Shown: one piece after another, positions 4,827 through 18,853 of the stretch
Layout of the letters: each line of letters starts with the position of its first letter
How positions within the stretch are numbered: the stretch's first letter is position 1
IMG/VR virus record: IMGVR_UViG_3300025892_003569
Location: 1-27,677 of that record
Strand: one strand, 5' to 3'
DNA length: 27,677 bases
Source of the DNA: a virus
Notes under the pieces: model-generated
What the model was told of the DNA's origin: nothing
Databases searched by the model: none
Seen by the model: the letters and a program-made list of their open reading frames with translations, nothing else
Position numbers and translations under genes: made by a program

Positions 4827-5089
4827 TTTTTAATATCTGTTTTGATTACTAAAACTCCTTCTTTAGTTGGATGTTTTTCTATCACCCATGTCATTCCATT
4901 CCAATCAGTAAATTCTTCACCAATTGTAATATTACTTTCCCAATATCTTACTGGATATTGTCCGTCCCAATAAGTGGGAATCATAGCGTCGAACCCAAAT
5001 TTACTTGGATTTTTATAAACTTTTGTTGGGATAATACCGTAGCATCCCGAAAACAAAAGCAAAGATAAAATTAAAATTATATTTTTCAT
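4823..5089 (-). CDS. Putative lipoprotein, 88 aa
   Basis: An 88-residue protein with a lipoprotein signal: MKNIILILSLLLFSGC, lipobox FSGC with Cys16 as the lipidation site. The mature part, about 72 residues, is polar with several Trp and Tyr residues (YWDGQYPVRYW, DWNGMTWVIE) and looks like a small beta-rich domain. It should be anchored in the inner or outer membrane. Phage-encoded lipoproteins commonly act in superinfection exclusion or as spanin subunits. The absence of a proline-rich stalk makes an o-spanin less obvious. It overlaps the 1049-aa T9SS protein upstream by four bases and so shares its transcript. Confidence 0.75.
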   Translation of the reverse strand: MKNIILILSLLLFSGCYGIIPTKVYKNPSKFGFDAMIPTYWDGQYPVRYWESNITIGEEFTDWNGMTWVIEKHPTKEGVLVIKTDIKK

Positions 5090-8000
5090 CTGAATATTGT
5101 TATGTGTCCTGTATTTGTGAATGTGTTAGATGGGTCCCATCCTACACCTTGTACTTTATATAAATATACACCATCTGCTACATAATAACTTCCACCACCC
5201 ACACTAGCAGGCCAAATCTCCCCGACAGTATTACTTTCCCACACTAAACTTCCCCACCTATTATAAATTTGAACATTCCATGCTCTCCAACAGCTTTCAT
5301 CTGCTATTACAATTTCCCAACCATCATTTAAACCATCATTATTAGGAGTAAAAGTATTAGGAATAAAGTATGACCCATCACAAGGTTCTAAATAAACACA
5401 AGAACCATCGTCATCTGTCGCTTGGAAATTATAATTTAAAGCTTCGGGGTCTGTACATCCTCCTAAGTAAATAACACACGAACCGTCATCCACAGTAGCG
5501 AGTGGGTTATAATTGGAAGCAATCGGGTCAGTACACCCAAATACATCATATTCACAAGAACCGTCATCGATATTGGCGATCGGGTTGTAATTGAGTGCAT
5601 TAATGTCAGTGCACCCAAACACATCATAAGTACAGCTTCCATCATTGATAGTAGCCAGGGGGTTATAGTTATTGGCTGAAGGGTCTGTACAACCAAGTAA
5701 GTCATAAGTACAAGACCCGTCGTCCCATTCTGCAGTTGGGTCGTAATTAGTAGCTTCTTCATCTGTACATCCATAAATACAGCTAGCAACGGCATCTTGA
5801 TAACAAGCTATAGGTTGGGGCCAAGTAATATCTGTTTCTTCACCTTCTAAAGTTTCAAGTTTGATGGTAACTCCTCCACCTCCATCAGTTGTTATAGGAC
5901 CAAATTCCATAGTAACACTTTCACCTGGGAGTAGTTCTCCTTCAAAACATTCAATTACATCAGGTCCACTTAATATATCATAATTAATACAAAAGTTTGT
6001 AATAGTTGTATTACCTACGTTATCAAAAAATAATATAGCAGTATAATAAGCCCCAGTTTCATCACAATATAAATCACACTCATAATCAATATAAAGTAAT
6101 TCGGTTTCAGGAAAAATACAACATTCTATAATAGGCTCACATGTAATATTAGCTTCAGGATTATAATTTAAAGCATCTGGAATCATACATCCTATAATAG
6201 GGTCTATACAACTTCCGTCATCTATAGTAGCAAGTGGGTTATAATTTACAGCGTTAATATCAGTACACCCCGAAATACAATCGGGCTCATCTGTTATAAT
6301 TTGGACATACATGTTATTTCCAACATTATTATCTAACCCAAAATCATTCCATGATTGATCACTAGAACCATTTACATCAATTATTCTAACAGTTAAAACC
6401 CCCCATTCATACATGTTAGGCCATTCCAATTCATAAGTTTCTCCAGGAGGTATTATAAAATTATCAAAACAAACAGTATCATCGCCCGCTAAAGTTCCTA
6501 ATATATCTTCAGTTACACATAATTCTGTTATAGGAACTTCCCCATAATTAGTAAGATAAAAAATTGGTAACCAATAGGCTCCAAATTCATTACACCCCGT
6601 TTCATATAAAATTGTATCTAACCCCACATCTACAATAGGCAAATATTCACATAAATCATTATTAGTACACTCAGTTGTCATGTTATAGTTTAAAGCTAAT
6701 GGATCTGTACAATCAGGTATACACACTGGGTAAGCAGGTAGTGTTGTACATATTACATTATCCTCGGGGGTAAGTTCTATTTGATTAACTAAAGTTGCAG
6801 TAGCACAAAGAGTATCCCCTTCTTGCCAAAGCATTTGGGTTGTAATTGTATTAATAGTAGGAGCGGTAACACCCGGAGGTAGGGGGACATTATATGGTGG
6901 TGGTTGGTTACCATCAACTCCTTGGTTAGAGGCTGCAATAAAACCATTAGGGCCTGTCCATGTAATTTTCCAAGTATATATACTATCTAAACCCGTATTA
7001 GTATAAGTAGTATGAAATCTTATACCTTCATTACATCCTACCCCAAGATTAAAAACATCACAATCTGCTTCTACTATAAATAATTCATCCATAGCTATAT
7101 CACCTGTTGTTGGGCAATTAAATAAATCAATATAATAATCCCAATAAGTATCATCATTTTGATAGGCATTACATAATTCTTCTCCATTAGGAGTATCACA
7201 AACTACACAGGACCCATCATTTACAGTTGCCTCATCATTATAATTACATGCTATAGGGTTTTGACAACCTAATATAATGTATTCACAACTACCATCATTA
7301 AAAGTAGCTACAGGATCATAATTATCGGCTTCTTCATCAGTACATCCAGGATATAAAGGTGAAGGAGGCAATTCATCAGGACACCAAACTAATGAATTAT
7401 TAGATAAATCAATATCTGGGTACATTTGAGTTTGATCCACACAAACTCCACAGGTATCTGTCCAATATTGTTCAGGAAAATCTATAATATCCGCTGTTTG
7501 GGATAAATTAATTTGCCATACTACCATTTCCCAACATTGATCGTTTTCTAAATCGGCCCCTAATAAACATTCCCAATCAAAAAATGTATTTAATTCAACA
7601 TTAAGAGTATCTCCTGTGTATAATCCTTCTCCAGCACTAAGTGTTGATTGGTTTATAGGGTAAGAAAATGTCCATCCTGGGTGATAATTGGATTGGGAGC
7701 AGGGACCATCACTAAAGTCTTCATATATGTGCAAACCAAAGACAAAATGGTTAATAGTTTCATTATTATTTACAATTGATGAACTATTATCGGGCCCACA
7801 TGTACCACCATCTGTGGTTGTAAATTCATTACACCCACAATTTTCTCCATTTATAATAGCAACAGATACTTGGTGGGTTTCGGGATCGTAACCAATTAAA
7901 TCTACATCACATTGTGGAACATCAGGTACCACAGGTACCCATCCATCATTTTCATCATAAAAATACTCAACACAACAAGAAGTTTCTGCAAAATAAATAC

Positions 8001-8235
8001 AAGTTACAATGTTGTTATAAAAATTTTCATTAAAAACAAAATGATTCTGATTCCCATCGGAATCTTGATTTATTATAGTTCCATCAAGAGCAGATGTTTC
8101 CCAGTAGTCTGGGGCTTCCCCCTCTAATGGGAGAGTCATTACTATTTGGTAGTGTGTACCTCCTATTCCTATAGATTCACATTGTGCTGAGGTAAATAGT
8201 GGGATTAAAGTTAAAAATAATAAAATATATTTCAT
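5086..8235 (-). CDS. Secreted GCTD-repeat protein with T9SS type B sorting domain
   Basis: A 1049-residue exported protein. The ATG at 8235 gives signal peptide MKYILLFLTLIPLFTSAQ and overlaps the metalloprotease stop as TAATG; the longer frame would need a TTG start. The body is Cys-rich beta structure, with CARDB-like stretches (for example VDVGLDTILYETG, LYIDYECDLYC) separated by about ten repeats of the form GCTDxxAxNYNP...DDGSC. The last five are in direct tandem. The C-terminal 95 residues, starting YFIPNTFTPNNDGLNDGW and containing IYNRWGSLVW, VADGVYLYKV and GHITIFR, match the gliding-motility-associated T9SS type B target domain. The predicted path is Sec export, then host T9SS to the cell surface. 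Function is unknown; adhesion or surface masking is a guess. Confidence 0.85.
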   Translation of the reverse strand: MKYILLFLTLIPLFTSAQCESIGIGGTHYQIVMTLPLEGEAPDYWETSALDGTIINQDSDGNQNHFVFNENFYNNIVTCIYFAETSCCVEYFYDENDGWVPVVPDVPQCDVDLIGYDPETHQVSVAIINGENCGCNEFTTTDGGTCGPDNSSSIVNNNETINHFVFGLHIYEDFSDGPCSQSNYHPGWTFSYPINQSTLSAGEGLYTGDTLNVELNTFFDWECLLGADLENDQCWEMVVWQINLSQTADIIDFPEQYWTDTCGVCVDQTQMYPDIDLSNNSLVWCPDELPPSPLYPGCTDEEADNYDPVATFNDGSCEYIILGCQNPIACNYNDEATVNDGSCVVCDTPNGEELCNAYQNDDTYWDYYIDLFNCPTTGDIAMDELFIVEADCDVFNLGVGCNEGIRFHTTYTNTGLDSIYTWKITWTGPNGFIAASNQGVDGNQPPPYNVPLPPGVTAPTINTITTQMLWQEGDTLCATATLVNQIELTPEDNVICTTLPAYPVCIPDCTDPLALNYNMTTECTNNDLCEYLPIVDVGLDTILYETGCNEFGAYWLPIFYLTNYGEVPITELCVTEDILGTLAGDDTVCFDNFIIPPGETYELEWPNMYEWGVLTVRIIDVNGSSDQSWNDFGLDNNVGNNMYVQIITDEPDCISGCTDINAVNYNPLATIDDGSCIDPIIGCMIPDALNYNPEANITCEPIIECCIFPETELLYIDYECDLYCDETGAYYTAILFFDNVGNTTITNFCINYDILSGPDVIECFEGELLPGESVTMEFGPITTDGGGGVTIKLETLEGEETDITWPQPIACYQDAVASCIYGCTDEEATNYDPTAEWDDGSCTYDLLGCTDPSANNYNPLATINDGSCTYDVFGCTDINALNYNPIANIDDGSCEYDVFGCTDPIASNYNPLATVDDGSCVIYLGGCTDPEALNYNFQATDDDGSCVYLEPCDGSYFIPNTFTPNNDGLNDGWEIVIADESCWRAWNVQIYNRWGSLVWESNTVGEIWPASVGGGSYYVADGVYLYKVQGVGWDPSNTFTNTGHITIFR
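5398..5771 (-). repeat. Tandem GCTD protein-repeat array (5 units)
   Basis: Five directly adjacent units of about 25 codons encode GCTDxxAxNYNP...DDGSC in the 1049-aa T9SS protein. DNA identity between units is partial, with many synonymous differences, so the array is not a very recent expansion. Five more diverged units lie upstream in the same gene. Confidence 0.85.
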
Positions 8236-10241
8236 TAGTTCCAAGAATTAAGGAATACTTTTTTAGTTGTTATATTACCATTTGACCAATTTTGTACAAC
8301 TATATAAATACCAGGGGCAAGTCTTCCCTTGTTATTTACTTCACGGCCAGTAAGGTCAAAATATATAGGTGGTCCTATTTTACAAAGGCCATTAACATCT
8401 ATAATTTCAGTTACATTAGCTGTAAAATTATCCTCAACTAAAATCCCGTTGCAATCGTAACTATATTGATTTAGAAATAATGTTAAATCATTTATATCGG
8501 TTTCACCATCAAAATTAAAATCAGTTGGGTGACATTCACTTTGTTGACCTGTCTCAGATAAAAATATGAGTAAATCTGAGTTGCCTGTAATACCGTCACC
8601 ATCTAAATCTGTGGGACAGTCATTTATAGGACATGGATTTGGAGCTTCAACACAAAATTGAAATTTTAAGAGTTGGGGTTCATCAATTTCTTCATCTGCA
8701 TAATAAATTTGTTCACCATTGGATAATTGTATATCTACATAACAACCAGGATATCCTAATAAATCAACTAATTCACAATCTAGGTTAGAATTACTTGTCC
8801 ATCGCCACCACAACTCATAACAACCTGGTTGTAAACAATAAGACCATTCAATAGGCCAATCATCAGCTGAGAAAAATTGACCAGTTTCCCAACATTGTGG
8901 TCCACCCCAATTACAAGAAGCAATTGGACCCGGGATATATTGGTTGTTTTCTATATCATATTCATGTATTCTCCACTGAGTACTGGAAGAAAACCCATCA
9001 TAATATACAATACTTATTTCGGTAAAAGGTTGGATAGGAAGATTTTGTATTAATGAGTTATTAAATTCCCAACCATCATCAGGGGTAATTAAATCTATAA
9101 GGACTGTGTAATCTCCAAATTGGAAAGTATAAGGATCAAAAATAATTTCAAAAGTTTCGTCTTGATCTAAAGTAACAACACCTGTATAGTTATCATAATA
9201 AACTTCTTCAAAAGTTGAATCTAATACTTGTATTTGACATTCTACAAAAAATGATCCATCTAAACCAAAATTCTTAACGGTTATTGAAGGGTCTAAGTAA
9301 GTATTACATTCTGGATTATTGTTTGTAAAACTTATTACAGCTAAATCAACATCTGAATTGCCACAAGCTATATTATTATTAATAACATCTGGTCTTAGGG
9401 TTTCAAGTTGTGCATGCATACGATCAACTTGCCCCGGAGTAAATAAAGTCCTACATTGATTAGGAGCATAGGACATATAAGAATTAATAACATCACCTGG
9501 GCATACGGGTTGGCAACTAAATGCTTGTATAGTAGGAGGAGTATCACAAACCCTATCACCCTGTGTTTCGCAATCAATTTCAGTAGAGGCGTCTTCACAA
9601 TCATCGTATGTAGGGTTAAATCCATCACTAAATGTGTGGAATAAACCACACCAATGACCCACCTCATGTATTAGAGTTTTAGATGTTGGGTCACTAAACC
9701 TATTAGTACGAACCCAACAAGTAGGACCCGTTGGTAAAGTAGCAAATCCGCTTGGGCCACTCGTCCAATTGTCTACATATATATTAAGATATTCGTTAGG
9801 TTCAATAATTGTTTGACCACTTACATAAGAATGATAATCTTGAGCATTATTACTAAAATCATATCCAGGAAATTTAGTAAGTACATTGTGGTATACAATC
9901 CCATTAATAGCTTCTCCATTAGGTCCAACAGAGGCTATGCATAATTCTAAAGAAGCATTAGAATCTTCAAACCAAGTATTAACACTATCAATAGCTTGAT
10001 ATGCTATTTCTGAGGAGAGATGGGGGGAAACACTATAAGGCTCACCTTCATGTAAAATGTGAACAATCGTTGGAATTATCTTAGGTATATTTAAAGAATT
10101 CCTTTTAATAGGTTGGATGGGAACTTCCGAGTGTGTATTAAATTTATTAACTTTATCAAACCCACACCACTGTGGCGTACTTTGGGCTCCTAAGAGCCCA
10201 ATGGAAAAAAATGCCAGTAATAGGCTTACTAATTTATTCAT
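8235..10241 (-). CDS. Secreted M43-family metalloprotease with dockerin-like repeats and T9SS tail
   Basis: A 668-residue exported zinc protease. The ATG at 10241 gives signal peptide MNKLVSLLLAFFSIGLLGAQ; a TTG three bases upstream is possible. The catalytic motif HEVGHWCGLFH (HExxHxxGxxH) is at residues 192-202, and the Met-turn SYMSY around M256 is followed by CRTLFTPGQVDRM, as in pappalysin/M43 peptidases. A CARDB-like domain (about 300-400) and a Trp/Cys-rich domain come next. Two calcium-loop repeats follow near 545-600 (DLDGDGITGNSD and DFNFDGETDIND, dockerin-like). The last 50 residues (FDLTGREV...APGIYIV...KKVFL) resemble the T9SS type A sorting domain. It probably acts on proteins at the host surface or outside the cell. 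It is the first gene after the hairpin at 10295-10321. Confidence 0.87.
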   Translation of the reverse strand: MNKLVSLLLAFFSIGLLGAQSTPQWCGFDKVNKFNTHSEVPIQPIKRNSLNIPKIIPTIVHILHEGEPYSVSPHLSSEIAYQAIDSVNTWFEDSNASLELCIASVGPNGEAINGIVYHNVLTKFPGYDFSNNAQDYHSYVSGQTIIEPNEYLNIYVDNWTSGPSGFATLPTGPTCWVRTNRFSDPTSKTLIHEVGHWCGLFHTFSDGFNPTYDDCEDASTEIDCETQGDRVCDTPPTIQAFSCQPVCPGDVINSYMSYAPNQCRTLFTPGQVDRMHAQLETLRPDVINNNIACGNSDVDLAVISFTNNNPECNTYLDPSITVKNFGLDGSFFVECQIQVLDSTFEEVYYDNYTGVVTLDQDETFEIIFDPYTFQFGDYTVLIDLITPDDGWEFNNSLIQNLPIQPFTEISIVYYDGFSSSTQWRIHEYDIENNQYIPGPIASCNWGGPQCWETGQFFSADDWPIEWSYCLQPGCYELWWRWTSNSNLDCELVDLLGYPGCYVDIQLSNGEQIYYADEEIDEPQLLKFQFCVEAPNPCPINDCPTDLDGDGITGNSDLLIFLSETGQQSECHPTDFNFDGETDINDLTLFLNQYSYDCNGILVEDNFTANVTEIIDVNGLCKIGPPIYFDLTGREVNNKGRLAPGIYIVVQNWSNGNITTKKVFLNSWN

Positions 10242-10294
10242 CAACTAAGTTTTTAAGAACGGACTGTATACTTGTTTTATCGATGATAAATATT

Positions 10295-10321
10295 AAGGGG
10301 ATGCGGTTCGCGCATCCCCTT
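10295..10321. terminator. Perfect 11-bp stem-loop, probable transcription terminator
   Basis: Arms AAGGGGATGCG and CGCATCCCCTT are perfectly complementary around a 5-nt loop, unusually GC-rich for this genome. On the plus strand a T6 run follows within two bases, the classical intrinsic terminator form. On the minus strand, where all the genes lie, the downstream stretch is only TTAATATTTAT. It sits in the roughly 100-nt gap between the 45-aa gene of the DNA-modification cassette and the metalloprotease gene. It may act in both directions, or as an RNA-stabilising 3' end. No convincing promoter was found in the rest of the gap. Confidence 0.75.
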
Positions 10322-10344: not shown

Positions 10345-10482
10345 TTAGTCTTTTAGCTGTAGAATTATTAATTTAAGTTTATCTATTAAATCTTCAACTT
10401 CATCGGGCTCCATCGTGACTGCACAGCAGATACCAACATTAGATTTAATTTCTTCTAGTAATTCTAATGCTTCTTCCTTCAT
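10345..10482 (-). CDS. Small helical protein, 45 aa
   Basis: Hand translation of the gap after queE reveals a 45-residue ORF: MKEEALELLEEIKSNVGICC, then a polar turn containing AVTMEPDE, then a helix (DLIDKLKLIILQLKD). It is acidic and probably a two-helix hairpin. The ATG overlaps the queE stop by one base (TAATG), and the ORF ends 23 bases before the strong hairpin, so it is the last gene of the modification cassette. The CC pair could bind metal or form a disulfide. I do not recognise it. A role linked to preQ0 synthesis or insertion is suggested by position only. Confidence 0.65.
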   Translation of the reverse strand: MKEEALELLEEIKSNVGICCAVTMEPDEVEDLIDKLKLIILQLKD

Positions 10483-11258
10483 TAAACACCACGTTCTGTG
10501 TTATAAGCTATAATGTGATCTCTCCCTGTCATATTATAGCCATACTCTGCTACCATTTCAAACACTTTAGGATACATTTCAATTAATGTTTCACGTGTAT
10601 CCCCAGCAGGCATTACAAATGTTTTATCTTTAGGAATGTCCATTTTTTGTCTAAATTCCTCTATCTCAGCTAAACCTTCATCTGTACCATCCCAAACTGG
10701 TTTGTAATGGTAGTCATCATGATATTTTAGAGTTTTTTCAATATTTTCATAATGTAATCTAAACCTCTCATGAGTTTTGACAAACCTTTCATCAACAACT
10801 TTCCCACCGGGAGTAGTAATGCCAACACGAGGGACAGAATTGCTAAACTTAGGACTAAGAGATATGAGATTAATAGGATAGTCGGTTTCAACAAAATGGG
10901 ATCCTTCTGTTTCGATTGTAATAAAGATTCCTCTTTCGTTGGCGAAGTGTGTAAGTTCATTTACTAGGGCGGGATGCATTGTAGGTGAACCACCTGTAAG
11001 CATCATTTCTTTTACTTGTGGGTTCTTATCATAAATATCTACAATGTCATTAAATGTAAAAGTACCTTTTTGTGGGTGAATACTTGTGTACCAAGAATCA
11101 CACCATCCTCCCTCACCAAACCAACAACGATGGGTACATCCTGTTGTTCTTACTGCAATAGTAGGGCGGCCAAATCTAGAGCCCTCACTTTGTACACATC
11201 TATATACTTCTAATACTGGAAGTATTTTATTGTAATCTTCTATTCTTTTATTCGGCAT
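10482..11258 (-). CDS. queE: 7-carboxy-7-deazaguanine synthase (QueE), radical SAM
   Basis: A 258-residue radical SAM enzyme expected to convert 6-carboxy-tetrahydropterin to 7-carboxy-7-deazaguanine. The N-terminus VLEVYRCVQSEGSRFGRPT matches the QueE 'F.SiQGEG...G.p..FvR' block. The cluster cysteines are C41, C45 and C53 (GCTHRC, then GGWCDSW), spacing C-x3-C-x7-C instead of C-x3-C-x2-C; other QueE proteins also carry insertions here. MMLTGGSPTMH is the GGEP-like SAM motif and ETEGS the next conserved strand. The ATG at 11258 (MPNKR) is preferred to the GTG at 11267. It overlaps queD by 11 bases and the 45-aa gene by one. Confidence 0.88.
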   Translation of the reverse strand: MPNKRIEDYNKILPVLEVYRCVQSEGSRFGRPTIAVRTTGCTHRCWFGEGGWCDSWYTSIHPQKGTFTFNDIVDIYDKNPQVKEMMLTGGSPTMHPALVNELTHFANERGIFITIETEGSHFVETDYPINLISLSPKFSNSVPRVGITTPGGKVVDERFVKTHERFRLHYENIEKTLKYHDDYHYKPVWDGTDEGLAEIEEFRQKMDIPKDKTFVMPAGDTRETLIEMYPKVFEMVAEYGYNMTGRDHIIAYNTERGV

Positions 11259-11706
11259 AAATCGCACTATTTTTTCCGTGTTCCCTAAATTCTACTTGCT
11301 TAACTCTAACACGCCCTTCTGTTTCTTCTTTTACAAACGTATTAAGCTTACCATAAATATATTCAGCAAATCGTTCTGCTCCAGTAGCTGGGATTACTCT
11401 TATTTGGGCTGCTCCTGCTTCATCCATTCTTTGGAAGGATTCAAGAAATGGATCGTCTTCTGCTACAACCATAGTATGGTCAAACATATAATCCATCCAT
11501 GCTTTGGGGTTCATACCATCAATTTGGGTTTTAGCACGTTTCATACCACCAAAATCCCAAACCCAATTCTTTTCGTCAAGTTCTCCTTCAAACCATACTT
11601 TAAAACTTACCCCATAACCATGAAGAAATCTACAGTGTGTTTTTTCTGCTTTCCATTGACGGAACACACAACTAAACCCATCAAATATTTTTGTTGATTG
11701 ATACAT
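11248..11706 (-). CDS. queD: 6-carboxy-tetrahydropterin synthase (QueD/PTPS family)
   Basis: A 152-residue member of the 6-pyruvoyl-tetrahydropterin synthase family, expected to make 6-carboxy-5,6,7,8-tetrahydropterin from dihydroneopterin triphosphate. The catalytic Cys is C25 in THCRFLHGYG, followed by WVWDFGGMK, FDHTMVV and ATGAERFAEY, which supply the conserved Asp, His and Glu. EFREHGKNSA is the usual C-terminal strand. Two positions that normally hold zinc-binding His look changed: the first-strand His is Phe15 (SCVFRQW), and the second His of HGH is Tyr31 (HGYG). Other phage QueD proteins I recall also have HGY. It overlaps queC by one base and queE by 11. Confidence 0.85.
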   Translation of the reverse strand: MYQSTKIFDGFSCVFRQWKAEKTHCRFLHGYGVSFKVWFEGELDEKNWVWDFGGMKRAKTQIDGMNPKAWMDYMFDHTMVVAEDDPFLESFQRMDEAGAAQIRVIPATGAERFAEYIYGKLNTFVKEETEGRVRVKQVEFREHGKNSAIYAE

Positions 11707-12503
11707 TATACTGCGTTTAAGATTTGTTCAACATGCTTTTGTACAACATCCCAGGAGACAGGTCCAGATTCATCAGCATATGATACTGGATCTGGTCTTC
11801 CCACTTTAAGAAAAGCTTCAACCCTTTCCACCGATGAAGCTGATTTATAATCACTGTACCAAGTCCCATTAATATTAAGGGGCTTATAAGAAGTATTTGT
11901 ACGCCTGTAAACTTCATCAAATTGTAACCCCAGTCGCTCGCAGCACCTAATACCATCGTGTAGTATATCAAACTTATCCCCATTAAGGTAAGGGGTAACA
12001 TAGCTAACGCGATCAGCGTCCCAGTTGCCTTCGGTGAAAGCCTTATAGTCAGCATCCCTGAATTCTTGTCTACAATCAGGGTAAATAGCGTGATCACCTG
12101 CGTGAATACCCATAGCAATATGGACTCTAGTATTTTTTTCATTTGCAATAGATAAGGCAACAGCCTGAATTAATGATGAGAAGATTTTATTACGATTAGG
12201 AACAACGGTTTCTTTCATATTTTCTTGTTCGTAGTGTCCTTCAGGTACTTCATCCCCACCTTCTACAAGGGCACTATTAAGCATCGGAGCTAAACCATCA
12301 AGTTTAATAGTTCCATACTTTACATTTTGCCCATTATCATTAAGATAATTAACTAATGTTTGAGCTCGTTCAAGTTCTACTCTGTGTTTTTGACCATAGT
12401 CAAAAGACAGTGCTGTCACTTCATAGCCATCGGCAAGTAGATGAAGTAACACTGTGGAGCTGTCCATACCTCCACTCAGTGACAATACTGCTTGTTTTTT
12501 CAT
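11706..12503 (-). CDS. queC: 7-cyano-7-deazaguanine (preQ0) synthase QueC
   Basis: A 265-residue ATP-PPi-loop enzyme that converts 7-carboxy-7-deazaguanine to preQ0 with ATP and ammonia. The PP-loop SGGMDSS is at residues 10-16, SFDYGQKHRVEL follows at about 33, and VVPNRN at about 100 is the second family signature. DKFDIL and RTNTSY mark the C-terminal half. The four zinc cysteines normally found in this region (Cys, then CGxCxxC before the ERxEAF helix) are absent: the region reads TSYKP...YSDYKSASSVERVEAF, with Ser or Asp at those places. It is not fused to a glutamine-amidotransferase domain. It overlaps the DpdA-like gene by four bases and queD by one. Confidence 0.9.
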   Translation of the reverse strand: MKKQAVLSLSGGMDSSTVLLHLLADGYEVTALSFDYGQKHRVELERAQTLVNYLNDNGQNVKYGTIKLDGLAPMLNSALVEGGDEVPEGHYEQENMKETVVPNRNKIFSSLIQAVALSIANEKNTRVHIAMGIHAGDHAIYPDCRQEFRDADYKAFTEGNWDADRVSYVTPYLNGDKFDILHDGIRCCERLGLQFDEVYRRTNTSYKPLNINGTWYSDYKSASSVERVEAFLKVGRPDPVSYADESGPVSWDVVQKHVEQILNAV

Positions 12504-13288
12504 AACGCGTTTATTCTTTTAAATTGTGTTGTATTATATTCTATCTTACTGTAAATATCAGAATCATATTCTCCTTTCATAACCTCATCAATTTTTGTTT
12601 TAGGTTTTGAACTTAATCCCCAATGGTTGTAAATAGTCCCATCAAACGCAGCCATTACAGGATTTGAAGTATCAATGCTTTCAATTTGTTTTATATCTTT
12701 ATAATATAAAAACTCTTGTGGGAGAGAACAACCTAAGAGATGAATTCTATCAGTATGTCCTATAAGTTCCATATCAATCATATCACTAATAACTGCTAAA
12801 CGACCTATAGCTTTACCCCAATCTTTATTAGGGTGTTTGCAAATATCGTTATAATAACTAGCCCCATAACTAAATGCAATCTTCGTGTAACCTAACCATT
12901 TATACGTTTGATAACACTTTACTACGTCACTAAACGATTTACCTTGTACGACAGCGACTTTTTCTACGCCCTCTGGGAGTTCAATAAAGCTCCATTCTTT
13001 TGCTTGACGCATAGAAGTAATTGCATCTTCCCAAGCATCCGGGACTATAAATTCATCTGGTTTGATTTCTTCAATAATAGAAATCATTCTACCTTTTGAG
13101 TAAGGTACTCCAAGTTCATGGAGAGAGTTATCCATTACAATATGACGACGCTGTCTGTGGTTTTCTCTTTGAAAGAATTCTTTATATTCAGTATATTCAT
13201 CATATAAGTGGGGAAGCAAGTAATCATAGTCATTAAACTTTAGACTTTGTTCTAAATATGCAAAAGGTATTTCGTGGGATACTTTCAT
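12500..13288 (-). CDS. dpdA: DpdA-like DNA 7-deazaguanine transglycosylase
   Basis: A 262-residue protein with the skeleton of tRNA-guanine transglycosylases in a short phage form. VMDNSLHELG (D53) aligns with the first catalytic Asp region, VVQG (113-116) with the strand motif, HLLGCSLPQEF (183-193) with the family's YLMGVGxPxD, and SIDTSNP (D206) with the nucleophile-Asp block of TGT. The C-terminal zinc-binding CxCxxC...H site of tRNA enzymes is missing, which fits a DNA-acting DpdA. The inferred reaction is exchange of guanine in phage DNA for preQ0 made by the next three genes, blocking host restriction enzymes. It overlaps the AT-hook gene by one base and queC by four. Confidence 0.83.
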   Translation of the reverse strand: MKVSHEIPFAYLEQSLKFNDYDYLLPHLYDEYTEYKEFFQRENHRQRRHIVMDNSLHELGVPYSKGRMISIIEEIKPDEFIVPDAWEDAITSMRQAKEWSFIELPEGVEKVAVVQGKSFSDVVKCYQTYKWLGYTKIAFSYGASYYNDICKHPNKDWGKAIGRLAVISDMIDMELIGHTDRIHLLGCSLPQEFLYYKDIKQIESIDTSNPVMAAFDGTIYNHWGLSSKPKTKIDEVMKGEYDSDIYSKIEYNTTQFKRINAL

Positions 13289-14442: not shown

Positions 14443-15474
14443 TTATAAAATTCTATAATTAAAACCAACTGAAAAATCATGCCATGCACGGTTCCAATAC
14501 TTATGGTATTTTCCTTCTGAGAAAAGACCTAATCTTTTATTTACTTGCCAACCTAAAATTAAACCCCCTGTGTAGTCAAACCATGTGTTACCATCTACAA
14601 AGTTAGTATATGAGTATTCATTTTTAGCACTTACGTGAAGAGGTAATACACTACCCCATGAATGAAACCAAAAGGATTTTGTGTAGTGGTAATAATCATA
14701 TCCTAATACTAATGAATGGTTCCACTGATAGGGTAGTAGGGATCTTTCTTGATCAACGTATTCATTTAGTACACTGGGGAGGGCAACAGCATTCCATACT
14801 ATGTTATTTTCAGCAACTACATCACCATTAGGGTTAAGCCATTCACCTTCAAAATTAGTACCATAACCTTGCTCAACAGCTATATTTGTAAAATCAGCTC
14901 CCGCTAAATCTGATAAAGGGTCAAAGCCATAGGGTTCAGAAAAGCGTTGGACTAAACCTATATTTAAGGAAAATTCTTTTGCTATGTTATATCTGTAACG
15001 TTGAGAGGCTTCGAAATACCTTAAATCAGCAAACCCATCTTGAACATATTCTATTTTTATTATCCAGTGATCGTGAACATATCTTAAAAAATGTTGTTGA
15101 TCAACAAATTTCCTTCCTTGTTGTCTTTTGTAGTCAAACTCAAATAAATATTCTAAACCTTCTACATTACCTACTGTAGCAGCATCCGAAACAGATGTTT
15201 CAGTTCCATTATAGAATACATTTTTTCTATTTTCATAATCTAAACGGGCAATTTTTCTAACACCAAAAGCTAAAGTATAATCAAAAGGAGTAGATACAAT
15301 ACTTTCTTCTAAAATACCAGTAGAAGGGTTTATTGAATATAAACTAACATCTGCTAGTGAATTATTACCTGTTACTGCAGTATAAAAAGTAGCAAACTTA
15401 AGTTGTTTTTCTAAAAATTGGGCTTGTGCCGATATAGAGCAAGCTAATAATAATATAGCTAGTAATTTTTTCAT
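14443..15474 (-). CDS. Putative outer-membrane beta-barrel protein
   Basis: A 343-residue protein with signal peptide MKKLLAILLLACSISAQAQ. Many alternating aromatic/polar strands follow (YRYNIAKEFSLNIGL, WNHSLVLGYDYYHYT, WFDYTGGLILGWQV, WHDFSVGFNYRI), the look of an outer-membrane barrel. The last strand ends FNYRIL. It lacks the DPQFTQYM opening typical of PorP/SprF proteins that serve type B T9SS cargo, so I do not call it that. It overlaps the 1010-aa T9SS protein by four bases. A phage-encoded barrel could change receptor availability or help surface display of the neighbouring protein; both are inference. Confidence 0.75.
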   Translation of the reverse strand: MKKLLAILLLACSISAQAQFLEKQLKFATFYTAVTGNNSLADVSLYSINPSTGILEESIVSTPFDYTLAFGVRKIARLDYENRKNVFYNGTETSVSDAATVGNVEGLEYLFEFDYKRQQGRKFVDQQHFLRYVHDHWIIKIEYVQDGFADLRYFEASQRYRYNIAKEFSLNIGLVQRFSEPYGFDPLSDLAGADFTNIAVEQGYGTNFEGEWLNPNGDVVAENNIVWNAVALPSVLNEYVDQERSLLPYQWNHSLVLGYDYYHYTKSFWFHSWGSVLPLHVSAKNEYSYTNFVDGNTWFDYTGGLILGWQVNKRLGLFSEGKYHKYWNRAWHDFSVGFNYRIL

Positions 15475-18400
15475 TGTTTAACGATTTTTTTAGTGAACTG
15501 GAGATCGTTGTATGTAAGGATTAGGTTGTAAATACCTGCTTTATACTTACTTAAATCTATTTGTTGTACATTATTGTTTTGATATACAGGTTGTCCTACA
15601 GCGTTGTATAATGTAGCATTAACATTTAAACTACTTGCTACAGTAATTATGTTTCTTGTTGGGTTAGGGAATACAGTAATTTGAGTTTCACCAAACTCTT
15701 CTACATTAGTTACTGTGTTTTCATCACAATAGTTGTATAAAGTTTGACACCCATCAGCCCACTCACTGTTGCAACAACTTGGGCTTACATCAATTACCCA
15801 AGCAAAACAAGAATTTTCTAAATCTAATAAATTATAAGCTTCTACTACTGGGTCAATGCAGTTAGCATATACTGTTTCGCAAGTTCCATTATCGGTATTT
15901 GCTTCTTCATTATAGTTGGCAGCTTGTGGATCGGTGCACCCATATACTATTTCAATGCAACTAAAGTTTTCAGTATTAGCTTCTGGGTTATAGTTAAATG
16001 CTGATGGGTCGGTACAACCTTCAATAAATATTTCACATCCTACATTTGTATTAGCTAATGGATCATAGTTAAAGGCAGTTTCATCTGTACAACCAAATAT
16101 TACTTCTTCACAAGATCCATTATCTGTGTTTGCTAACTCATCATAATTAAATGCTGTGGGGTCAGTACAACCAAATATTTCAGCTTCACAAGTACCATTA
16201 TCAGTATTAGCTTGGGGGTTATAATTAATGGCTTCTTCATCAGTACAACCTTCTACCACTGATTCACAACCAACATTTGTATTAGCAAGTGGATTATAAT
16301 TAAAAGCAGTTTCATCTGTACAACCAAATATTACTTCTATACACGTACCATCATCCGTATTAGCTAATAAATTAAAATTAAATGCCTCTACATCAGTGCA
16401 ACCTAAGATTGGGAGGATACAACTAAAATCTTCTGTATTAGCTTCAGGAACATAGTTTAGCGCTTCAGGGTTAGTACAGCCTTCTACAATAGATAAACAT
16501 GAATTGTCATCTGTATTAGCTAATGGATCGTAGTTAAATGCTAATTCGTTAGTGCAACCAAATATTTTATCAATACATGTTTCATTATCTACATTTGCCT
16601 CTTCTTCAAAATTAAAAGCATCTAGGTCAGTACACCCAAATATTGCTAAAGTTTGACAACTTCCATTATCAAAATCAGCTTCAAATCCTTGAGTATAATA
16701 TTCTAAATAGCCAGCACTAGTACAACCGGGTTGGTAATAACAACTTTCATCATTGGTATTTGCTTCTTCGTTGTAATTAACTGCTATATTATCTAAACAA
16801 CCATAAACAAATTCCTCACAAGTATTACCACAGTACAAGTCTATCTCGTAAACATACCACCCACTTTCCCCAGTAAATGGAATTGCACTAAAGAAAGGAA
16901 TATCTAAAATAATATCACCCTCAGGGTTGGTTAACGTAAGCCCACATTGTTGGATAGTATTAATTGATTGGGGAGTAGTAAAGAAATACACATAAGCTTT
17001 TTTAGAAGCATCCAAACCAGATACATTAAATGATAATTCAGTGCCATCATTAGGACCCATTTGGTATTGAGGTGAAAAATACCATTGTTGATATATCCCA
17101 ACCCAACTACCAAACCAACCATCCCCAACACCATCTGTAATAGTTAAAGTATAATCACAAAACTGAATAACATCTTCAGTGTTAGCTTCAGGGTTATAGT
17201 TGAATTGGGTTTCATCTAAACATCCTAATACAATAGGAGTAACACAAAATGATTCAAGTGGGTTATCTATAATAGCTTCGGGGTTGTATTCTACGTAGTT
17301 AGGGTCAGTACATCCTACTAGATCAGCTATACCCTCACATACTGTTGGAGTAAATGGGTCTGATCCTGCTATATAACCAAAATTCCCATCTGGGTATTCG
17401 TCTTGAAGATTGTATAATACTTCACCTTCACAATCTAAAATTTGAATATTACCGGGTTGTCCATTTACTCCCACTATTCCATCACCATATGAATCTTCTA
17501 TTACAATATCATAAGGTTGGGCAATAGGAACACAAACACCAGTTGTGACAGGGATACCAGGAGGAGAACCGGCATAAGTACCTACAGGGGCAGATGCTAC
17601 ACTTCCTAAATCTCCATATAAAACCCAGCTTACTTCACCACCCCAAGGGTCAGGGGTTACTACAATCTCAAGTAAGGTTTCACCTAAAGTACATTCTGTA
17701 GTTTGATCTATGCAAGAACCATCGTCAAAATTAGACCAAGGACTCCAGTTAATGGCATTAAAATTAGTACATCCAGGAATAGCACCACAAGGTAAACACG
17801 ATTCCCAACAATAATTAAGAAGAACTGTTTCTTCCTCTTCAATTACTGTTAATGTTCTATTAACGAACCCAAACTGGTCAAATTGGAAACAAGAACCTTC
17901 ACTAACACCCACAGGTAATTCTTGTAAATCAGGATTATCAAAATCAGCAAATTTCCATAAATAATTTCCTGCTGGTATAGGAATAGTTACAAACCACTCA
18001 TCATCCTCATCATATTCCATAGGAATAACTTGCCACCCATTCCAGTTGCCTAATACGCCAGGTGTTTCAATTTCAGGTGGAGCATTAGCTAGATTAACTC
18101 TGAACATTACATCTGTTGTAGGTAATTCACAAGGAGTTAAATTAAAATCATAGCTAGCTATGGATGATCCAAATTCATATTCTTCAAATATTACACCATC
18201 ACAATTATTAGCAGTTATAAAAAATCCATCTCCAAATTCACAACAAATACCATCACCAAAAGCATCAATGATTGTAAATGTGTAATCAATATTAGAATTT
18301 AAAAATACTCTTTGTTGGACTAATGTGTTAGGAGGTGTATTAGCATAACTAGGGCTAACAACAACTGTATCGGCTCCTTGAGTTATTACCCAGGCAGTTT

Positions 18401-18503
18401 CTGGTGGGTATTGATCAAGTTGAATTGTAAGGTCTAAGTATGTTGGCTGAGCCAAACATGTGAGACCAATAAGTAATAAAAGGGAAGTTAATAATTGTTT
18501 CAT
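15471..18503 (-). CDS. Secreted GCTD-repeat protein with T9SS type A sorting domain
   Basis: A 1010-residue exported protein. Signal peptide MKQLLTSLLLLIGLTCLAQ is followed by a beta domain containing DAFGDGICCEFGDG, then a starch-binding-like (CBM48/SusF-like) domain at about 130-235 (MFRVNLANAPPE, GVLGNWNGWQVIPM, GNYLWKFADF). About fifteen GCTD repeats follow; ten are in uninterrupted tandem towards the C-terminus. The last 75 residues (TQITVFPNPTRNIITV, LYNAVGQPVY, YKAGIYNLIL, KKIVKQ) are a textbook T9SS type A sorting domain. It should leave the cell by Sec and host T9SS and be anchored or released at the surface. Polysaccharide binding is suggested by the CBM-like domain only. It is coupled to the thioredoxin-like gene upstream and the barrel gene downstream. 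Confidence 0.88.
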   Translation of the reverse strand: MKQLLTSLLLLIGLTCLAQPTYLDLTIQLDQYPPETAWVITQGADTVVVSPSYANTPPNTLVQQRVFLNSNIDYTFTIIDAFGDGICCEFGDGFFITANNCDGVIFEEYEFGSSIASYDFNLTPCELPTTDVMFRVNLANAPPEIETPGVLGNWNGWQVIPMEYDEDDEWFVTIPIPAGNYLWKFADFDNPDLQELPVGVSEGSCFQFDQFGFVNRTLTVIEEEETVLLNYCWESCLPCGAIPGCTNFNAINWSPWSNFDDGSCIDQTTECTLGETLLEIVVTPDPWGGEVSWVLYGDLGSVASAPVGTYAGSPPGIPVTTGVCVPIAQPYDIVIEDSYGDGIVGVNGQPGNIQILDCEGEVLYNLQDEYPDGNFGYIAGSDPFTPTVCEGIADLVGCTDPNYVEYNPEAIIDNPLESFCVTPIVLGCLDETQFNYNPEANTEDVIQFCDYTLTITDGVGDGWFGSWVGIYQQWYFSPQYQMGPNDGTELSFNVSGLDASKKAYVYFFTTPQSINTIQQCGLTLTNPEGDIILDIPFFSAIPFTGESGWYVYEIDLYCGNTCEEFVYGCLDNIAVNYNEEANTNDESCYYQPGCTSAGYLEYYTQGFEADFDNGSCQTLAIFGCTDLDAFNFEEEANVDNETCIDKIFGCTNELAFNYDPLANTDDNSCLSIVEGCTNPEALNYVPEANTEDFSCILPILGCTDVEAFNFNLLANTDDGTCIEVIFGCTDETAFNYNPLANTNVGCESVVEGCTDEEAINYNPQANTDNGTCEAEIFGCTDPTAFNYDELANTDNGSCEEVIFGCTDETAFNYDPLANTNVGCEIFIEGCTDPSAFNYNPEANTENFSCIEIVYGCTDPQAANYNEEANTDNGTCETVYANCIDPVVEAYNLLDLENSCFAWVIDVSPSCCNSEWADGCQTLYNYCDENTVTNVEEFGETQITVFPNPTRNIITVASSLNVNATLYNAVGQPVYQNNNVQQIDLSKYKAGIYNLILTYNDLQFTKKIVKQ
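15879..16637 (-). repeat. Tandem GCTD protein-repeat array (10 units)
   Basis: Ten adjacent units of 25-26 codons with pattern GCTDxxAFNYNPxANTDNGSC-like. Units 5 and 8 of the array share a one-residue-shorter ending (NTNVGC). Their DNA (16264-16338 and 16033-16107) is nearly identical, with 33 identical bases in a row, offset by 231 bp. This indicates duplication of a three-unit block. Confidence 0.85.
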
Positions 18504-18853
18504 TAAAATTTGCTCATTATGATTTCATCAATGGATCCTTGTACTTCTTTGCGAGTAGCTTCCATGGTCATCATAATGTTTGCCTGGAACCTCGCTACTT
18601 CAGCGCCATCTTCTAGGATTAAGATGGTAGGTACAACTACTATTTTATATTCTGTGGGTAAAGTAGGATCAGCCATAATATCTACTGTAGAAATAGAACA
18701 ATCTGTTAAATTTTCTAACCACTTTACTTCATTTGCCGAATTGAATGCGGCATTAAATTGGACTACACATAGTCCATCGTTACCTGTACATATTTCTTCT
18801 TGTCCATATGAAATAAAAGGTAACAGACTTAAAAATAACAATAATTTTTTCAT
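18503..18853 (-). CDS. Exported thioredoxin-fold protein lacking the CxxC active site
   Basis: A 116-residue protein with signal peptide MKKLLLFLSLLPFISYGQ and a thioredoxin-like remainder. CVVQFNAAFNSANEVKWL aligns with the active-site strand and helix of thioredoxins, but NSAN replaces CGPC. VVVPTILIL has the cis-Pro loop, and EDGAEVARFQA the last strand. It is therefore probably redox-inactive and used as a binding or structural module in the periplasm or at the surface. Cys22, Cys28 and one near residue 52 could still form a disulfide. It overlaps the 1010-aa T9SS protein by one base and follows the coiled-coil membrane gene by two. Confidence 0.78.
   Translation of the reverse strand: MKKLLLFLSLLPFISYGQEEICTGNDGLCVVQFNAAFNSANEVKWLENLTDCSISTVDIMADPTLPTEYKIVVVPTILILEDGAEVARFQANIMMTMEATRKEVQGSIDEIIMSKF

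Follow-up and report, generated by a model that had tools for sequence, protein, structure and literature searches.

The window analysed here, the whole 27,677-bp IMG/VR record IMGVR_UViG_3300025892_003569, is a fragment of a phage genome, and it raises the question of what a phage would do with a pappalysin-type metalloprotease that appears to be built for export. The gene and its parts are listed below, with residue numbers that follow, here and throughout, the 669-aa form of the protein.

8235-10241, minus strand: M43 (pappalysin-type) metalloprotease of 668 aa, from its open reading frame, the Peptidase_M43 profile and a fold match to mirolysin and ulilysin
10185-10241, minus strand: signal peptide with predicted cleavage before Gln21, from the sequence and the Q-rule
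10161-10166, minus strand: Cys27-Gly28, cysteine-switch motif of the pro-segment, from its invariance and alignment with the Cys-Gly of ulilysin
9354-10094, minus strand: catalytic domain, residues 51-297, the range aligned to the mirolysin and ulilysin structures
9636-9668, minus strand: zinc motif HEVGHWCGLFH, residues 193-203, from the sequence and alignment
9468-9485, minus strand: Met-turn region NSYMSY, residues 254-259, in which SYMSY holds the invariant M257
9459-9461, minus strand: Asn262, which occupies the position of Asp289 in the S1' pocket of mirolysin, from alignment (PMC6949598)
8451-8618, minus strand: dockerin-like repeat, residues 543-598, from a below-cut-off NF041540 match and EF-hand-like hits of the profile in this region
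8238-8426, minus strand: degenerate T9SS type A-like C-terminal part, residues 607-669, from a below-cut-off TIGR04183 match and profile-profile comparison

Translation from the ATG gives 668 residues, and from an upstream TTG at 10244, 669. The Pfam Peptidase_M43 profile matched the protein with an E-value of 9.2e-13 and 48.8 bits, above the cut-off of 23. Residues H193, E194, G196, H197, G200, H203, and M257 were invariant in an alignment with 36 relatives, indicating that the zinc motif is not a chance string. The HExxHxxGxxH motif and the Met-turn had been described as intact from the sequence alone, and they proved to be so. The comparison with ulilysin and pappalysin that had been proposed at that stage gave a clear result. 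The AlphaFold2 model (mean pLDDT 74.7) was matched by VIA-align to mature mirolysin (6r7w; Z 21.9, rmsd 2.5, 215 residues, 27% identity) and to ulilysin (3lum; Z 20.8), and more weakly to PAPP-A (Z about 17) and other metzincins (about 15). Ulilysin and mirolysin were also the best solved structures for a profile of the protease relatives (E about 1e-51 to 1e-48). A Foldseek list for the whole model, which included IgA protease and transglutaminases, had low TM-scores across domains and was set aside in favour of VIA-align.

From the N- to the C-terminus, the protein consists of a predicted signal peptide, a pro-segment, the catalytic domain, a beta-rich middle, the dockerin-like repeat, and the T9SS-like C-terminus. 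The signal peptide, MNKLVSLLLAFFSIGLLGA^Q, is clear by eye from the sequence and fits the Q-rule, a Gln directly after the cleavage site being usual in Bacteroidetes (PMC5837995). Cys27 was invariant in the same 36 relatives. A Cys-Gly cysteine-switch pro-segment is a trait of unicellular pappalysins (PMC6949598), and the switch role of the motif was demonstrated in mirolysin (PMC8259862, PMC6949598). By its profile, motifs, Met-turn, predicted fold, and cysteine-switch pro-segment, the protease is a member of the M43 (pappalysin) family. The catalytic and cysteine-switch residues look intact, and the protein would be made as a latent zymogen that is presumably capable of activity.

Mirolysin, an M43B protease of the KLIKK type from Tannerella forsythia and a T9SS cargo, has the same succession of signal peptide, Cys-Gly pro-segment, pappalysin domain, and C-terminal T9SS part (PMC8259862). 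The window enzyme differs from it in being phage-encoded, in its dockerin-like repeat and degenerate T9SS signal, and in the Asn that replaces the S1' Asp. Ulilysin and human PAPP-A share the catalytic fold and motifs, but have other accessory domains and lack a T9SS part. Cytophagalysin of Cytophaga, also a pappalysin of Bacteroidota, has a C-terminal domain that resembles a T9SS signal, but it is a chromosomally encoded protein of 137 kDa with eight Ig-like domains (PMC11674741).

The preference of mirolysin for Lys/Arg is due to Asp289, which lies two residues before a disulfide cysteine and whose pocket is occupied by an arginine of the pro-segment (PMC6949598). This Asp is kept in the viral relatives L127, L131, L135, L136, and L139, and in those of them whose N-terminus was inspected, the residue immediately preceding the switch cysteine is basic. 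The window protease has Gln-Trp before that cysteine and Asn262 in the pocket, and may prefer other substrates; L134, its nearest row in the tree described below, has neither the S1' Asp nor the basic residue. The LysargiNase subgroup, with the Lys/Arg specificity of mirolysin, ulilysin, and PAPP-A, is marked by an Asp on the floor of the S1' pocket, and the window protease falls outside it.

The closest named phage, judged by the helicase (56% identity), is Flavobacterium phage immuto (Immutovirus), a cultured T4-like isolate of 160 kb. NrdA and QueE are 73% and 68% identical to their immuto counterparts, and the replication and queuosine genes (the polA to queE block and others) are collinear with immuto and with viral contigs. 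The gene order of the window is also that of metagenomic relatives, whose helicases are 84-91% identical. The window is thus, as judged by gene content and order, a fragment of an uncultured immuto-like, T4-type phage, and protein identities to immuto of 39-73% suggest a separate genus. Its host is presumably a marine Bacteroidota. The first description of the gene as a phage-encoded M43 protease of the pappalysin type is therefore borne out by the profile score, the invariant motifs, and this genomic setting. A side observation concerns FolE, QueD, QueE, and QueC, together with a protein 39% identical to the annotated DpdA of immuto (1947-2642, 10482-12503, 12500-13288), which suggest a 7-deazaguanine modification of the DNA.

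The protease occupies a slot of variable content between the conserved queE and thyX genes. In G001 and G002-G004, the slot holds an M43 gene of the same architecture that is 29-31% identical to that of the window, with flanking genes that are mostly 80-95% identical. In G005, G006, G007, and G040, the M43 gene is missing, and a T9SS type B protein alone is kept. An M43 gene is also borne by the L136 contig, whose helicase is 91% identical to that of the window, and none was detected in immuto.

The protease had at first seemed an isolated oddity, an impression that weakened as dozens of IMG/VR contigs were found to encode relatives. A search with the window protein alone gave no viral relative, and the relatives were found only by profile search, which identified 89 viral stretches in IMG/VR encoding M43 relatives. 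A collection of named phages gave one weak match, and no cultured phage with this gene was found; PHROGs held no family for the M43 protease or for the exported proteins. A terminase large subunit match was present in 10 of 48 records tested, including window-clade records outside the immuto group. In L139 and L141, a T4-like capsid operon includes the M43 gene and a type B partner, which are flanked by the genes for the prohead protease and the gp23 major capsid protein.

In trees of 92 catalytic domains, a single branch (support 99) separated the viral rows from the cellular ones, and the window protease fell in a set of seven viral rows (support 98 and 97). The trees suggest, rather than prove, that M43 has long been resident in phages, since cellular M43 proteins were sampled to a limited extent and the search patterns were biased towards one motif variant. 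A second large viral group (L154-L206) comprises proteins of about 330-480 aa with the motif HExGHYCGLHH and a dockerin-like end, mostly without a T9SS-type end; its contigs reach 152 kb, and phage hallmark genes were confirmed for a minority of them at most. Two different M43-like zinc-motif genes were seen on single viral contigs in L157 (7968-9101 and 9138-10496) and L134 (635-2590 and 7818-9056).

How the protease would leave the cell is suggested by its C-terminus and by its neighbours. The NF041540 profile (GC-type dockerin) scored 21.4 bits against a cut-off of 29, and the repeat is called dockerin-like for that reason. TIGR04183, the type A signal profile, scored 15 bits on the C-terminus against a cut-off of 23, and a second search (E 3.5e-5, 18.9 bits) likewise stayed below it. 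In a profile-profile comparison, the C-termini of phage M43 proteins aligned with phage type A signals at a probability of 95%. The alignment spans the final two thirds of the domain, and the M43 C-termini lack the PNP motif. By the curated cut-off, the protease is not classed as a T9SS type A cargo, and it is proposed to work like one. The following genes, all on the same strand, encode further predicted exported proteins.

5086-8235, minus strand: large exported protein with a T9SS type B (CHU_C) signal at 5098-5364, from CHU_C and TIGR04131
7363-7890, minus strand: domain of this type B protein that is also present in the type B partners accompanying M43 genes in other phages, from sequence comparison
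15471-18503, minus strand: large exported protein with repeats, whose T9SS type A signal lies at 15474-15674, from TIGR04183
14443-15474, minus strand: 343-aa predicted outer-membrane beta-barrel whose start overlaps the type A gene, from its model and relatives
18503-18853, minus strand: small thioredoxin-like protein with a signal peptide at the head of this second cassette (14443-18853), from a profile match below the cut-off

The type B signal scored above both cut-offs (CHU_C, 55.6 bits against 27; TIGR04131, 37.4 against 35), as did the type A signal of the second cassette (TIGR04183, 38 bits against 23). The ATG of the type B gene overlaps the stop codon of the protease (TAATG), suggesting that the two genes form one operon. 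T9SS export of the protease is likely, not proven, since its own signal is degenerate and lies below the cut-off, and profile comparison is what supports it. The earlier claim of a secreted enzyme therefore stands in part: the features of an exported zymogen were found, whereas simple secretion gives way to the host T9SS as the more probable route, the signals being on the neighbours and, in degenerate form, on the protease itself.

An obligatory pairing of M43 with the type B partner domain was considered and rejected. The two co-occur within the immuto-like relatives, but a wider scan found proteins with the partner domain at 75 viral loci that lack an M43 gene directly upstream (in 10 of the 75, the upstream sequence was too short to tell), and M43 in that position only in L139-type contigs. 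Type B proteins with the shared N-terminal domain were seen at about 77 viral loci (L379-L458), and many of the genes for partner-domain type B proteins lie directly behind that of a secreted protein of ~120 aa beginning QCNQHVFTSVGAE. The start of the L139 M43 protein (QHVFSSVEVE) resembles this QCNQHVFTSVGAE-type protein, as if the protease had replaced it or been fused to it.

Relatives of the barrel were found at 79 viral loci, in most of which the immediately preceding gene encodes a protein with a type A signal at its end; the four such signals that were checked were all above the cut-off. The succession of a type A gene and an overlapping barrel gene was seen at about 50 viral loci (L289-L367), and a more distant barrel group adjoins other, apparently structural, genes. 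No match to the barrel was found among named phages or among 395 Bacteroidia genomes, the latter a search for which a cellular positive control was not possible. The model is a beta-barrel of moderate confidence (pLDDT 65.7). A role as a phage shuttle of the PorV/SprF kind was not supported, as the T9SS chains 8gl6_F and 6h3i_F gave Z values of about 8 and generic barrels, led by EstA, reached 11.6. The type A and barrel pair is possibly the more conserved half of a phage surface programme. Two thioredoxin-like genes are present in the window, one at 211-462 and the other, with the signal peptide, at 18503-18853, beside the exported cassette with its cysteine-rich proteins.

The protease probably belongs to a transcription unit of the phage's own. 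Two features precede it.

10295-10321, minus strand: terminator-like hairpin upstream of the protease, with similar hairpins in the same place in relatives
10286-10294, minus strand: promoter-like motif AATATTTAT, 44 nt before the ATG, recurring in relatives

The hairpin followed by AATATTTAT lies upstream of M43 in the window, G001, and G002, and in G005, G006, and G007, which lack M43, a hairpin followed by AATATTTAT or TATATTTAT lies before the type B gene. AATATTTAT occurred 39 times on the coding strand and 5 times on the other, where about 12 were expected on each. It is found 13-31 nt before tail genes in G007, and in immuto, ATATTTAT lies upstream of the genes for the tail sheath, tail tube, baseplate hub, and terminase, as well as of the exported gp013 and gp014. 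The immuto motif was counted before 12 of 57 late starts and 6 of 54 other starts; a strictly late promoter was therefore rejected. A sigma-70 scan gave no more sites than in shuffles. AATATTTAT is a candidate phage promoter, for which its placement makes a late role probable.

The reading that best explains the whole, and to which we give somewhat better than even chances, is that of a latent M43 protease that is exported by the host T9SS and cuts surface proteins. The phage would make the zymogen in the infected Bacteroidota cell, probably late and from its own transcription unit. Sec would carry it to the periplasm, and the host T9SS would then take it through the outer membrane, as it would the T9SS proteins of types A and B that the phage encodes. 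Outside, the pro-segment would be removed, and the enzyme would cut proteins on or near the cell surface. Cutting of receptors, S-layer, adhesins, or matrix was proposed in the sequence-only reading and may be among its uses. The gliding adhesins SprB and RemA are T9SS cargo. Flavobacterium phage receptors have been proposed to be parts of the gliding machinery (PMC7345892), and with adhesins travelling by the same export route, the protease could remove receptors. The likeliest use would be to strip or remodel T9SS-borne surface adhesins, so that superinfection is reduced and progeny do not stick to debris; surface adhesins as the target are plausible, with the odds somewhat against them. More tentatively still, T4-like Bacteroidota phages might carry a modular, phage-resident set of T9SS-exported proteins (the M43 protease, the type A and type B adhesin-like proteins, and the phage-only outer-membrane barrel) under their own promoters, which would rebuild the host surface, the protease acting as a receptor-destroying enzyme that blocks superinfection and re-adsorption.

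The export route and the possible late timing would fit equally well with a factor for release or dispersal, in which the exported protease, instead of attacking receptors, digests matrix or particle-bound protein and lets progeny leave biofilms or marine particles. The gelatinolytic activity of cytophagalysin, a related T9SS-type pappalysin (PMC11674741), is in keeping with such a role, whereas the dockerin-like repeat and T9SS-type signal point to a protein that stays on the surface, and we regard dispersal as having perhaps one chance in several. An auxiliary metabolic gene, whose product would release amino acids from environmental protein to feed the infected cell, is improbable. Secreted M43 proteases are common in likely hosts, related genes being present in 355 of 395 Bacteroidia genomes, but such hosts already own the enzyme; moreover, in L139 and L141, the capsid operon is a late-gene place, at which feeding would be of little help.

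Slightly less probable again is a periplasmic protease that aids lysis or processes phage envelope proteins, its T9SS-like C-terminus being non-functional. The degenerate, below-cut-off type A signal would agree with this, but the C-terminal module recurs across the whole clade of the window protease, and the T9SS signal of the overlapping neighbour is intact. A virion-associated depolymerase, packaged so as to clear the way to the next cell's receptor, is very unlikely: the gene does lie beside capsid genes in L139 and L141, but a protein with a signal peptide and a T9SS-like C-terminus would leave the cytoplasm, the site of virion assembly, and the structural proteins annotated in immuto include none of this kind.

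For phage-encoded T9SS cargo, which the protease would be in the preferred reading, one precedent was found. Cryophage, described as a unique case, encodes a variable set of T9SS cargo proteins that presumably rely on the host system; this cargo comprises an endoglucanase, a GH39 protein, and a PA14 protein, and no M43 protease was reported there (PMC7468147). A phage M43 protease as T9SS cargo was not found in the open-access literature and appears to be new, whereas the protease family and phage T9SS cargo were already known. Such cargo now extends to T4-like phages related to a cultured isolate and includes a zymogen protease that looks intact; the contents of the slot are swapped between close relatives, and the recurrent barrel partner was not found in the cellular genomes searched. 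Should this be confirmed, exploiting the host T9SS would be a strategy that recurs among phages, and alteration of the infected Bacteroidota surface by phages would become testable, for example with immuto and its Flavobacterium host. Immuto shares the replication and queuosine core with the window and has an exported cassette of its own, which differs in being lectin-like and cohesin-like. This cassette, gp013-gp018 (L002, 10527-15868), is a run of signal-peptide proteins in which gp015 (cohesin) carries a T9SS type A signal and two genes have ATATTTAT upstream, making the cultured phage a ready test system.
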